From the NCBI GenBank assembly GCA_020061125.1, contig JAGUYV010000288.1:1-5864 (forward strand): a stretch of DNA of 5,864 nucleotides, written 5' to 3'. The stretch comes from a bacterium (GTDB taxonomy: Bacteria > UBP15 > UBA6099 > DSWB01). Position 1 is the stretch's first letter, and each line of letters begins with the position of its first letter. A program made the translations under genes and the position numbers. The notes below the pieces were generated by a model. The model ran no database searches. It saw nothing but the letters and a program-made list of their open reading frames with translations, and had not been told where the DNA came from. Positions 1,876-5,864 of this stretch are shown one piece after another.

Positions 1876-2715
1876 CTATTTGCCGGGGGCCGGTTCCGGC
1901 GCGGGGGCCGCGCCGTCAATTGTAATCACGGGTTTCTTTTCCTGGCCCGGCGGCTCTTCTTCAAGAATCTGAAAAAAGAAACCGTCGCCCGACTTCTCCA
2001 GGTATCCCCTGACCGTGGCCAGGGCCGGTGTTTTGGCGTCTGGCTTGAGGGGGAACGGACCGCGCACGCGCACGCAACGGCCGTCCGCGCCCGCCATGAT
2101 CCATGTTTCCGCATTCGCGTCCGGAAGCTCGGGCGGCGGGGTTTTGCAGGCCTCGGGGCCGGGTGCGGCCAGGCCCTTCATTCCAATGGGTTTTGCGATG
2201 TATTTATCCGGCGTTTTCAGCACGGATTCCAGGGTGAGAATCGCCATGTCTCCGTCGCGCATCTTGCGCAGGGCCAGCAGCGCGCGCGGATTCACGGTCT
2301 GCACGGGTTTGTTCTTCTCCGTATATGGAACCAGGAAGAAAGGCTGGCCGGACTCCTGCTTCACGACATAGCCGGAGAGGGTTATCATCTCCCCGTATCC
2401 TTTTTTCTGTATGGGATCGAAATTCGCGGGCAGGGGGCCGTTTGCGTAAATGCACAGGCCCTGCTTGTCGTGGATCATCACATCGGCCGCGCTCACGGGC
2501 TGGACGGTTCTGCACCCGCCGTTGAAGCCCATGAACTGGCCCACGAGCAGAACGCGTTCGTCTTTATATTCGTCCGGCTGCGTGAGCGCCTGCTTCACGG
2601 AAACAACGCGGGGTTTGGCTTTTTCCGCGGGGGCGGTTTCTCCCTCGGCTGACGCGGTCCGCGCCGCGGCCATGGCGGCCATCAAGGCAATCACCGTTAT
2701 GTACCGTTTGTTCAT
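1876..2715 (-). CDS. Secreted or periplasmic protein with two tandem OB-like domains
   Basis: A 279-residue protein I do not recognise as a named family. Residues 1-23 are a signal peptide: MNKR, a hydrophobic stretch rich in Ala and Met, then ASA before Glu24, a good signal peptidase I site. The mature part contains the same domain twice, about residues 38-130 and 160-251. Shared landmarks are PDEY/PDKY (47-50, 169-172), CRT/CKT (68-70, 190-192), GLC/GRC (86-88, 212-214), a GP.PL-like stretch (93-95, 219-223), and GYVVKQESGQPFF/GYLEKSGDGFFF near each end. The beta-rich pattern resembles bacterial OB-fold domains, but that is inference. Each copy has two Cys 20 or 24 residues apart, a possible disulfide outside the cytoplasm. 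The C-terminus is a Pro/Ala-rich tail. ATG 2715 has GAGGG (2723-2727) 7 nt upstream. It lies 34 nt before the GH4 gene, so it is probably in the same operon. Function unknown. Confidence 0.85.
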   Translation of the reverse strand: MNKRYITVIALMAAMAAARTASAEGETAPAEKAKPRVVSVKQALTQPDEYKDERVLLVGQFMGFNGGCRTVQPVSAADVMIHDKQGLCIYANGPLPANFDPIQKKGYGEMITLSGYVVKQESGQPFFLVPYTEKNKPVQTVNPRALLALRKMRDGDMAILTLESVLKTPDKYIAKPIGMKGLAAPGPEACKTPPPELPDANAETWIMAGADGRCVRVRGPFPLKPDAKTPALATVRGYLEKSGDGFFFQILEEEPPGQEKKPVITIDGAAPAPEPAPGK

Positions 2716-3587: not shown

Positions 3588-5318
3588 TCAGAACTCCGCC
3601 TGCCCGCCTCGCGCGGATTTTTCCTGCTCGATGCGCTTGAGGAATTCGAAGGCGCAAACGCGGATTTCGATTTTGTCCCGCTCGTCGCGCACGATGTTGC
3701 CCCGGCTGTCAATGGAGATGAGGAAGTGGCTGCCCCGGGTGTAAAGGTCCTCGACGCCTACGCGGCGCAGTTTCTTGCGCGTGCGCTGGAGCAGGGCGAT
3801 GTAATCCTGCTCGGAGATGATGCCCTCGCGGTACGCGCGCAGGGTGTCCACGCCTTCGTAGTAGTCGCCGTCTTTGGTCGCGAGCTTGTCGTCCGGTCCG
3901 TTCCAGTAGCCCCAGATCACAACATATTCATGATCGCGCACCAGGACTTTGCGCCGGTCCGGGGTTTTGATGCGCGCGTGGCTTTTATAACGGCTTGTGT
4001 CCAGCAGGTGCTTGGGAATGCGGGTCTTGTTGCCGCTCATGTAAATGGCGCGGGGGTAGATGGTGGGAATGCCCTTGTCCGCCATCTCCAGGGCTATGGA
4101 GAACTCTTCGAAGGGGCTGTTGTACCCGTGCTCGAGGATGTCTTTTTCATCGTTCTTAAAGGGATCCATGTCCGGGAACAGGCCCACGCGCGAGACTTTC
4201 CAGACCAGGTGAATGTGGTCTTTGGTGACGGTGTAATAGGTGGCCTGGTAGGTGGATATTTTCGTGCGGGGCGTCTGCTCCCATTTCTCGGGGAGAAAGA
4301 AGTCGAACAGGTGCGGGTCCCGGCCGGCCACCCAGAGGCGACCCTTTGTGCTTTCCACCTGGCCGTACACATAGTCCACGCCCAGGATGTTCACATGCTT
4401 GAGATGCGGGTGGAATGTTTTGGGGATGGAGATGCGGAAGCGGTCCTTCTGGCGCTGGAGGTAGTCTGTGCGCCGGTCCTTCTTTTTCTGCGCGTAGCGT
4501 TCCGGAGAATGGGCGAGAAGCTCGAAATCCACCAGGCCCTTGGGAGCGTCCAGAGGCTCGATGGAGTGTCCGCGCGCGGGCTGGCTGCCTCTCAAGATCA
4601 CATGCTCGGGCTTGTAGTCTTTAACCACGAAACCTTTCTTATGAATAATGCCGTGCGCGTGCTCGTTGGCGGCCTCCACGGCCGCGTCGCGCAGCATTTT
4701 CAGGTCCCGCGCCTGAAGAAGGTCATGGCCGTGAATCCACTCATAGATGACCGCGTACGAGCGGTGCATATCCAGCTCCACATCCCTGTGTTTCTGCATG
4801 AGGGCCTGCATCATGTGATGCTTGCGGCCCAGTTGCCACAGCTCCGATGTGTCCGCTGGCACATAGATGGCGAGCGGTGTCTGGATGGCGAGCCGTTCCT
4901 CGTCGCCGCGCATTTCGTCCTTGAGTTCCATGACCAGCGAGAATTCTTCGAAGGGGCTGTTGAATTCCGCGAACATCATGCCGTGCACATTGCGGCTGCC
5001 CGGCACCTCCTGGCCCATGCGGTTCCATTTGAGAACGATGTCCAGGGCGCGGCCGGCCACCTCTTTTGTGCGCACGCGGAACACGGTGCTTGTGCCGCTC
5101 AATTGCTCGGAATGGGCTTCGAACCACGCTTCGTCGGTCCAGTAGTTTTCAGGACGCAGAATGTCTATGTGCGGCACGCCGAACCGGGTGACATACAGGT
5201 CGTCCCTGTTGCGCAGGGTCAGGTGCGCGTATTCCACGCCGAACACCTTGGCCAGAGCCACGCCGCGGGCTTTGCGGTTCCTGTCGTACCAATCTTTTAT
5301 CACCGGATCCTGAATCAT
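3588..5318 (-). CDS. Tandem kinase-like protein: atypical kinase domain plus degenerate second copy
   Basis: A 576-residue soluble protein of no family I can name. Module 1 (about 24-270) has the marks of a protein-kinase-like fold in order: a beta3 lysine in IVLKWNR (Lys97), a helix-C glutamate in NSPFEEF (Glu124 or Glu125), a hinge-like IYEWIHGHD (191-199), a catalytic-loop look-alike VKDYKPEHVIL (232-242, compare HRDLKPENILL) and DFE (264-266, compare DFG). Module 2 (about 308-563) repeats the layout: GVDY (313-316, as GVEY at 27-30), LVWKVSR (Lys374), NSPFEEF (400-406), a hinge-like VIWGYWNGPD, but AFEF (556-559) where module 1 has DFEL, and no DxKPxx loop. Module 1 may phosphorylate a protein, glycan or small molecule; module 2 looks like a pseudokinase. 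ATG 5318 has AGGGAGG (5328-5334) with 9 nt between GGAGG and the start. It has its own promoter and is followed by a 116-nt gap. The kinase assignment rests on motifs only. Confidence 0.75.
   Translation of the reverse strand: MIQDPVIKDWYDRNRKARGVALAKVFGVEYAHLTLRNRDDLYVTRFGVPHIDILRPENYWTDEAWFEAHSEQLSGTSTVFRVRTKEVAGRALDIVLKWNRMGQEVPGSRNVHGMMFAEFNSPFEEFSLVMELKDEMRGDEERLAIQTPLAIYVPADTSELWQLGRKHHMMQALMQKHRDVELDMHRSYAVIYEWIHGHDLLQARDLKMLRDAAVEAANEHAHGIIHKKGFVVKDYKPEHVILRGSQPARGHSIEPLDAPKGLVDFELLAHSPERYAQKKKDRRTDYLQRQKDRFRISIPKTFHPHLKHVNILGVDYVYGQVESTKGRLWVAGRDPHLFDFFLPEKWEQTPRTKISTYQATYYTVTKDHIHLVWKVSRVGLFPDMDPFKNDEKDILEHGYNSPFEEFSIALEMADKGIPTIYPRAIYMSGNKTRIPKHLLDTSRYKSHARIKTPDRRKVLVRDHEYVVIWGYWNGPDDKLATKDGDYYEGVDTLRAYREGIISEQDYIALLQRTRKKLRRVGVEDLYTRGSHFLISIDSRGNIVRDERDKIEIRVCAFEFLKRIEQEKSARGGQAEF
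4101..4962 (-). repeat. Internal duplication in the kinase-like gene (two conserved copies of a 22-nt core)
   Basis: The 22 bases at 4101-4122 and 4941-4962 differ at one position only. They are 840 nt apart, exactly 280 codons, and encode the NSPFEEF element of each module. The flanking DNA has diverged, although the proteins remain alignable (GVEY/GVDY, ILRPENYW/FLPEKW, IVLKWNR/LVWKVSR). The interval runs from one core to the other; the duplicated modules are about 250 codons each. Confidence 0.7.
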
Positions 5319-5353
5319 GCCGGCGCGCCTCCCTGCTTGATTCCTTCTCGCTT

Positions 5354-5382
5354 ATTATCCCGCGCGCCGGGTTGTGTATCAA
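5354..5382 (-). promoter_or_regulatory. Sigma70-like promoter of the kinase-like gene
   Basis: On the minus strand TTGATA (5377-5382) and GATAAT (5354-5359) are separated by exactly 17 nt; each differs from the consensus at one base. Transcription would start near 5347, giving a leader of about 29 nt that contains the AGGGAGG ribosome site of the gene starting at 5318. The spacer is GC-rich and carries a short inverted repeat (CCCG/CGGG). Confidence 0.65.
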
Positions 5383-5423
5383 TCAAAGCGGACAAATCGC
5401 GCGGCGCGGGTTTTGCGCATTGC

Positions 5424-5452
5424 TTGCAGGAATGGCGCGAACAGCCTATAGT
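5424..5452 (+). promoter_or_regulatory. Possible promoter of the RRM gene
   Basis: TTGCAG (5424-5429) and TATAGT (5447-5452) on the plus strand are 17 nt apart. The -10 box matches 5 of 6 consensus bases, the -35 only 3 of 6. Transcription would start near 5459 and give a leader of about 145 nt, long for such a gene. A promoter closer to the gene is not apparent, because the DNA between is GC-rich. Confidence 0.45.
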
Positions 5453-5542
5453 GAAGTTGGTTTAGAGTCTTGGAGAGACCAGGACATAGAGCAGCATGAA
5501 CGCCTGCCGCCCGCATCCCGAATCTCACACGGCCAGGAACCA

Positions 5543-5603: not shown

Positions 5604-5864
5604 GTGAGCAAGAAATTGTATGTGGGCAATTTGAGTTTTGACACGCGCGACGACGATCTGCGCGGCCTGTTCGAGCAGTATGGGGCCGTTGAGAGCGCGG
5701 AAGTGGTGACGGATCGCGACAGCGGGCGCAGCCGCGGGTTCGGGTTTGTGGTTATGCCTTCGGACCAGGAAGCGCAGGCGGCGATTGACGCGCTGAATGA
5801 AAAGGAAGTGGGCGGGCGCAACATCGCGGTGAATGAGGCGCGGCCTCCGAAACCGCGCACGGGC
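5604..5864 (+). CDS. RNA-binding protein with one RRM domain, partial (3' end outside window)
   Basis: The first 87 residues of a small bacterial RNA-recognition-motif protein. The domain starts almost at the N-terminus and is complete: RNP2 is LYVGNL (5-10) and RNP1 is RGFGFVVM (44-51), each with the aromatic residues that stack on RNA bases (Tyr6, Phe46, Phe48). The domain ends near NEARP (77-81) and a Pro/Arg-containing tail begins as the window ends. Such proteins in bacteria are usually about 80-150 residues, often with a Gly/Arg-rich tail, and bind RNA in the cytoplasm; several are cold-induced (family knowledge). GTG at 5604 is chosen because AAAGGAG (5590-5596) sits 7 nt upstream and RRM proteins commonly begin M(S/T)KKLYVGNL. 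The frame stays open upstream to ATG 5496, so a 36-residue extension is formally possible. It diverges from the kinase-like gene. Confidence 0.95.
   Translation, partial: MSKKLYVGNLSFDTRDDDLRGLFEQYGAVESAEVVTDRDSGRSRGFGFVVMPSDQEAQAAIDALNEKEVGGRNIAVNEARPPKPRTG

Follow-up and report, generated by a model that had tools for sequence, protein, structure and literature searches.

A bacterial family of tandem kinase-like proteins with a probably active first module and a pseudokinase-like second module

The stretch of DNA analysed here (5,864 nucleotides of contig JAGUYV010000288.1, hereafter the window) carries on its minus strand a gene whose 576-residue product holds two successive copies of a very small kinase-like domain. 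Computation shows that internal duplication produced this tandem of a kinase and a pseudokinase module in one polypeptide, and we consider it moderately probable that the first copy (module 1) is active and that the second (module 2) is a pseudokinase. Tandems of kinase and pseudokinase typify eukaryotic signalling. The same layout in bacteria, reached via duplication of a minimal domain, would offer a simple setting for studying how an inactive copy governs an active one.

Results

The tandem gene and its product

An earlier sequence-only reading of this gene had described a kinase module followed by a degenerate repeat. All residues that it cited were in place, in module 1 (Lys97, Glu124/125, V232-KDYKPEHVIL and D264-F-E-L) as well as in module 2 (Lys374, N400-SPFEEF and A556-F-E-F), and the tandem layout is well supported. 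The features are listed in Table 1.

Table 1. Features of the tandem gene. Coordinates are positions in the window; fractions are counts among 68 aligned full-length family members.
Feature	Residues	Position	Strand	Remarks
Tandem kinase/pseudokinase gene	576 aa	3588..5318	minus	ATG start; homologues found
Module 1, kinase-like	19-292	4443..5264	minus	Conservation, model, fold search, hhalign
Glycine-rich-loop equivalent	73-82	5073..5102	minus	Gly75 68/68
Beta-3 lysine	Lys97	5028..5030	minus	67/68
Helix-C motif	N120-SPFEEF	4941..4961	minus	Glu125 68/68
Catalytic loop, VKDYKPEHVIL	232-242	4593..4625	minus	Asp234, Lys236 and His239 each 68/68
DFG equivalent	D264-F-E266	4521..4529	minus	Asp264 and Glu266 both 68/68
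Helix joining the modules	272-291	4446..4505	minus	Sole helix after DFE, replaces the usual C-lobe (model)
Module 2, pseudokinase-like	297-563	3630..4430	minus	Fold searches, hhalign, conservation
Beta-3 equivalent	Lys374	4197..4199	minus	K37 R25 E3 Q3 of 68
Repeat of the module 1 motif	N400-SPFEEF	4101..4121	minus	Glu405 68/68
Degenerate catalytic loop	524-531	3726..3749	minus	His531 68/68; 526 mostly Asn, Tyr here
DFG equivalent	A556-F-E	3645..3653	minus	Asn in 62/68, Ala here

None of the Pfam and NCBIfam models covers the 576-residue protein, profile searches of the PDB returned no match, and the best phmmer match, ULK2, was not significant (E 1.3). The literature searched, mostly without subscription papers, contained neither a description of the protein nor a bacterial family of such layout, in agreement with the earlier statement that no such family had been described. 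Given the lack of a Pfam or NCBIfam entry, genes of this family are presumably annotated as hypothetical. A role as a defence kinase was not supported, PADLOC giving only PD-T4-6 at E 0.02 to 0.05. An antisense open frame of 579 residues (3726-5465, plus strand) lies over the kinase gene; the DNA is GC-rich and the frame is probably not a gene.

Alignment of the profile of residues 19-292 with that of residues 297-563 using hhalign matched 234 columns at a probability of 99.85 and an E-value of 1.6e-30, a pairwise and uncalibrated figure. The proposal that module 2 repeats module 1 is thus borne out beyond chance, by hhalign and by conservation in 68 homologues. As the aligned region extends from the first strand as far as the DFE/NFE motif, it was the whole module that was duplicated.

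Predicted fold and the short C-lobe

AlphaFold2 models built with 59 homologues had a mean pLDDT of 87.7 for the whole protein and 89.9 for module 2 modelled alone. Foldseek and VIA-align searches, carried out with the whole-protein model and with module 2 alone, returned almost exclusively kinase-like structures and so bear out the kinase-like fold read for both modules. For module 1 the best matches were DAPK1 (Z 10.0; 151 residues, 3.6 Angstrom), MSMEG_1954 (Z 9.7) and WaaP (Z 9.3). Module 2 best matched PRPK/Bud32 (Z 9.1) inside the whole model and, when modelled alone, MSMEG_1954 (Z 8.5), WaaP (Z 8.2) and RIOK1 (Z 8.2), with a few NIS siderophore synthetase entries further down the list and a best Foldseek E-value of 3e-3. 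Agreement is moderate, in the Z values as in the superpositions (some 150 residues at 3.6-4 Angstrom; TM to target ~0.3 in Foldseek), and conservation of the motifs weighs as much as the fold. Measured against the protein-kinase-like (PKL) superfamily, module 1 has both the fold and the complete set of residues, and module 2 the fold only.

Both modules lack the APE motif and the peptide-binding helices of ordinary kinases. Module 2 ends 5 to 28 residues past NFE in nearly all members, without the helix that follows DFE in module 1, and the aligned stretches of stand-alone relatives (see below) end 3 to 29 residues past DFE. With no full C-lobe and no match to the Pfam kinase model (PF00069), the protein falls outside the Hanks-type kinases.

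Conservation of the two active sites

In addition to the module 1 residues in Table 1, Arg100 and Gly102 are kept in 68/68 members, and conservation on this scale supports the claim of an intact active site. Where the sequence-only reading had named Glu124/125 as the helix-C glutamate, the assignment holds for Glu125; Glu124 is kept in 58/68 only. The catalytic loop follows the pattern Asp234-x-Lys236-Pro-x-His239, in which His239 stands in place of the usual metal-binding Asn. A His at this position is invariant in both modules and in the stand-alone relatives and characterises the family. As Gly75, the Lys97-Glu125 pair, Asp234/Lys236 and Asp264, which serve Mg-ATP binding and phosphate transfer, are all kept, module 1 is probably an active phosphotransferase; judged from its sequence, catalysis is likely.

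In module 2 the commonest letters at the Gly75 position are A13 V11 E8 S8 D8 T6, with no glycine among them. The Asp234 position (residue 526) reads N42 S10 Y6 D2 of 68 and the Lys236 position R42/K13 of 68, while the DFG-equivalent Asp is N62 of 68 and is followed by a Glu position of E63; the catalytic and metal-binding aspartates are, in short, mainly replaced by asparagine. The degeneracy proposed earlier for module 2 is therefore supported and extends to the glycine of the glycine-rich loop, although two details required correction. A counterpart of the DxKPxx loop, said to be lacking, does exist as Y526-T-R-G-S-H531, degenerate but with an invariant His, and AFEF in place of DFEL, correct for the 576-residue protein, is peculiar to the window copy, the family reading NFE. 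With the loop glycine, catalytic Asp and DFG Asp lost, and the fold, Glu405, His531 and the invariant stretch IWGYWNG (468-474) kept, module 2 is probably a pseudokinase, a class defined in sequence terms by a kinase fold that has lost at least one of the beta-3 Lys, the catalytic Asp and the DFG Asp.

Distribution of the family and stand-alone relatives

A search of ~85,000 species genomes with two conserved peptides yielded 69 loci, nearly all of them full-length and 40-62% identical. The record titles name Elusimicrobia, Omnitrophota, Auribacterota, Nitrospirae, Spirochaetes, Deltaproteobacteria, Planctomycetota, Verrucomicrobia, Lentisphaerae and Kiritimatiellae. The genomes are nearly all metagenome-assembled and come from many phyla, most of these uncultured; a few odd labels (Nanoarchaeota, Nealsonbacteria, Actinomycetota) may reflect mis-binning. 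In phylum samples that partly include family genomes already known, the family was patchy, being present in 20/240 genomes of Verrucomicrobia (15 full-length, one split, four stand-alone), 8/244 of Planctomycetota, 4/120 of Spirochaetota and 1/116 of Omnitrophota. Relatives were not found in viral contigs or plasmids.

Ten single-module proteins, in open frames of 295-426 residues, were recovered from the Verrucomicrobia and Planctomycetota samples. They align to module 1, retain the catalytic Asp, Lys, His, Asp and Glu in 10/10 cases and form one well-supported group in the module 1 tree; no stand-alone module 2 was seen among the relatives found. The homologue search hence refutes the notion that both modules always occur together, the tandem being common and not obligatory. 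On this tree, rooted by midpoint only, the stand-alone proteins may either predate the duplication or derive from tandems that lost module 2.

A few irregular frames were encountered. In one Verrucomicrobia genome (G346) the modules occupy overlapping separate frames (L069:7944-9652, identical to L089 and L094), a two-gene form that may be a split gene or one frameshift and is indistinguishable from an assembly error. Locus L097 has a 466-residue frame that matches the family only to about residue 354 and represents a truncated copy or a broken frame. A frame of 1187 residues (L049) resembled a fusion; it was set aside on the impression that its N-terminal part is antisense DNA in translation. 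A match in G041 (E 5e-4) was discarded as lying inside an AMP-binding synthetase-like ORF.

Gene neighbourhood

The most recurrent neighbour is the gene for GTP-dependent PEP carboxykinase (PEPCK-GTP), located on the same strand in 10/69 loci. It lies directly upstream in eight planctomycete loci (L030, L032, L033, L035, L038, L040, L047 and L071), with gaps of -1 to 215 bp, and 3 bp downstream in two Verrucomicrobia loci (L022 and L023); it is also found ~270 bp downstream of the stand-alone L103. These adjacencies represent three separate branches of the module 1 tree (built without L047). A further search for stand-alone members in Planctomycetota brought no additional PEPCK neighbour to notice, the PEPCK screen covering only the earlier loci. 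On a rough estimate that assumes ~35 lineages, two neighbour slots and 3000 gene families, the chance of any family recurring in three lineages is below 1 in 100, and recurrence in two would not be surprising. PEPCK-GTP was present in 43/46 family genomes against background values of 26/98, 211/240 (Verrucomicrobia) and 70/120 (Spirochaetota), with a stratified one-sided p of ~0.005 uncorrected for phylogeny; three family genomes show no PEPCK-GTP. As the enzyme is common in these groups, the co-occurrence is weak evidence.

Most family loci, the window included, have other neighbours, and the genome of the window carries its PEPCK elsewhere. In L030 and L033 a polyphosphate kinase 2 gene (PPK2; L030:9629-10504, L033:9710-10585) directly follows, giving the order PEPCK - tandem kinase - PPK2; a neighbour in L032, taken by length for PPK2, is a xylose-isomerase-like protein. 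Closer to the window in the tree, L006, L010, L011 and L073 are flanked by genes for PEP-dependent EIIA and/or Na+/H+ exchangers, the exchangers carrying EIIA or CBS in some cases. L005 also has EIIA, Na+/H+ exchanger or ClC-CBS flanks, and a ClC-CBS channel lies upstream in the nearest relative. In the window itself the same strand encodes downstream a hexapeptide-repeat (acyltransferase-like) protein, a 278-residue protein, a GH4 enzyme and a sugar-nucleotide epimerase-like protein.

Several neighbouring genes were recorded in passing. The 278-residue protein (1876-2712, minus strand), encoded between the GH4 and hexapeptide genes, has a signal-peptide-like start and no Pfam match, and a divergent gene (5604-5864, plus strand) that runs off the window encodes a product that by eye resembles a small RRM-type RNA-binding protein. 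In four Verrucomicrobia loci (L090, L091, L092 and L093) the gene immediately after the stand-alone kinase was identified, again by eye, as an ArgJ-like ornithine acetyltransferase; L091 and L092 also have an rpsI-like gene close by. Upstream of the kinase in L023 (4163-7783; same gene in L022) is a gene for a 1207-residue protein that has an alpha/beta-hydrolase domain and also matches the hydrazine-synthase-alpha middle domain.

Discussion

Proposed mechanism and alternatives

We propose that a minimal protein-kinase-like domain ending just after the DFG equivalent was duplicated within one polypeptide and that one copy may now serve the other. Module 2 could supply the missing C-lobe surface, hold the substrate, or switch module 1 on a metabolite signal; on one reading it stands in place of the absent peptide-binding surface. 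It is plausible that module 2 regulates module 1, since all 68 full-length members have kept it even though its catalytic residues are lost. The likeliest target would be GTP-dependent PEPCK or another PEP-node protein, at any rate for the Pirellulales and a single branch of Verrucomicrobia. This lead comes from gene adjacency and co-occurrence: since the PEPCK gene adjoins the family in several lineages, the protein may act as an inbuilt control on central carbon metabolism. Taken alone, a PEP-node target is possible, though unlikely, and the full proposal, in which a kinase-pseudokinase pair with an exceptionally small C-lobe reversibly controls GTP-PEPCK or another PEP-node protein, is a shade more doubtful still. 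If functional, the operon link would suggest that an enzyme of central metabolism is controlled covalently. PEP-node control would then be a so far unrecognised way of switching post-translationally between gluconeogenesis and glycolysis, used by Planctomycetota, Verrucomicrobiota and Spirochaetota as well as by several uncultured phyla.

That the adjacency to PEPCK is incidental operon packing, with the target elsewhere (e.g. in EIIA or ion-exchanger control), has only slightly less than an even chance and can be combined with an active module 1. Most loci are without PEPCK next door, and the family members closer to the window in the tree are repeatedly accompanied by genes for EIIA and Na+/H+ exchangers; however, the PEPCK cases are three, separated in the tree, with differing gene orders, and two of them have gaps of a few bases.

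Another view, which we regard as rather improbable, is that module 1 phosphorylates a small molecule (a sugar, nucleotide or lipid precursor), as do kinase-like enzymes of the aminoglycoside or WaaP type. WaaP and ABC1-type proteins rank high in the structural comparisons, a C-lobe for protein substrates is absent, and many neighbours are metabolic enzymes, such as the GH4 enzyme and the hexapeptide acyltransferase-like protein of the window. The neighbours nevertheless vary between lineages and indicate no one pathway, the commonest of them, PEPCK, requires no extra kinase for its own reaction, and the conserved pseudokinase partner is better suited to regulation.

A kinase-like fold with other chemistry, e.g. 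AMPylation or glutamylation as in SelO and SidJ, could be suspected from the unusual His239 and DFE and the absent C-lobe, and such folds are described (PMC10870513, PMC6858067). It seems very unlikely here, as the invariant Asp234 and Lys236 are a signature of ordinary phosphotransfer. SelO differs from module 1 in the conservation of the catalytic-loop Asp and Lys. It is equally improbable that both modules are non-catalytic binding domains of a scaffold or metabolite sensor, as the His at the metal-binding position and the tiny C-lobe might suggest, for the catalytic set is wholly invariant in module 1 and the stand-alone relatives and lost in module 2, a pattern most simply read as purifying selection on catalysis.

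Comparison with known systems

Both modules find some of their best structural counterparts in the ABC1/UbiB atypical kinases (Rv3197, MSMEG_1954, COQ8A/ADCK3). Module 1 differs from them in its G-loop Gly, the tandem layout, the His for Asn and DFE; no Pfam model was matched, and a UbiB match (NCBIfam) was found in 1/59 members only, at E 0.16. The minimal kinases WaaP, Bud32 (PRPK) and RIO are also structural matches and share the small C-lobe, but they show no sequence match, and the domain of the present family stops a few residues after DFE/NFE. Bacterial Ser/Thr pseudokinase families with defined catalytic losses and as yet unassigned function include ActPs1-3, GLW, CP1, DYD and DLHK, covered in a review (PMC12599244); these are of the bSTK type, whereas the present family has no Pfam kinase match, and that review makes no mention of 'tandem', Planctomycetes or Verrucomicrobia.

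AceK, the isocitrate dehydrogenase kinase/phosphatase, offers a parallel as a bacterial kinase-like regulator of a branch-point enzyme and is of similar length. It has ~578 residues and a different regulatory domain in place of a second kinase copy, and scanning the window protein and two homologues against Pfam, up to E 10, brought up no AceK model. The likeness to JAK drawn in the sequence-only reading does not extend to the architecture. In JAK the pseudokinase is N-terminal to the kinase and a FERM-SH2 part belongs to the protein; here the kinase comes first, the pseudokinase is C-terminal, the C-lobe is far shorter and there is no further domain. Like the present family, JAK and plant tandem kinase-pseudokinases (WTK1/Yr15, PMC6170490) join an intact and a degenerate kinase domain in one polypeptide, although they are eukaryotic protein kinases unrelated to it in sequence, and their degenerate domain is thought to regulate. 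For such control of a live copy by a dead one, the stand-alone relatives would provide natural controls.
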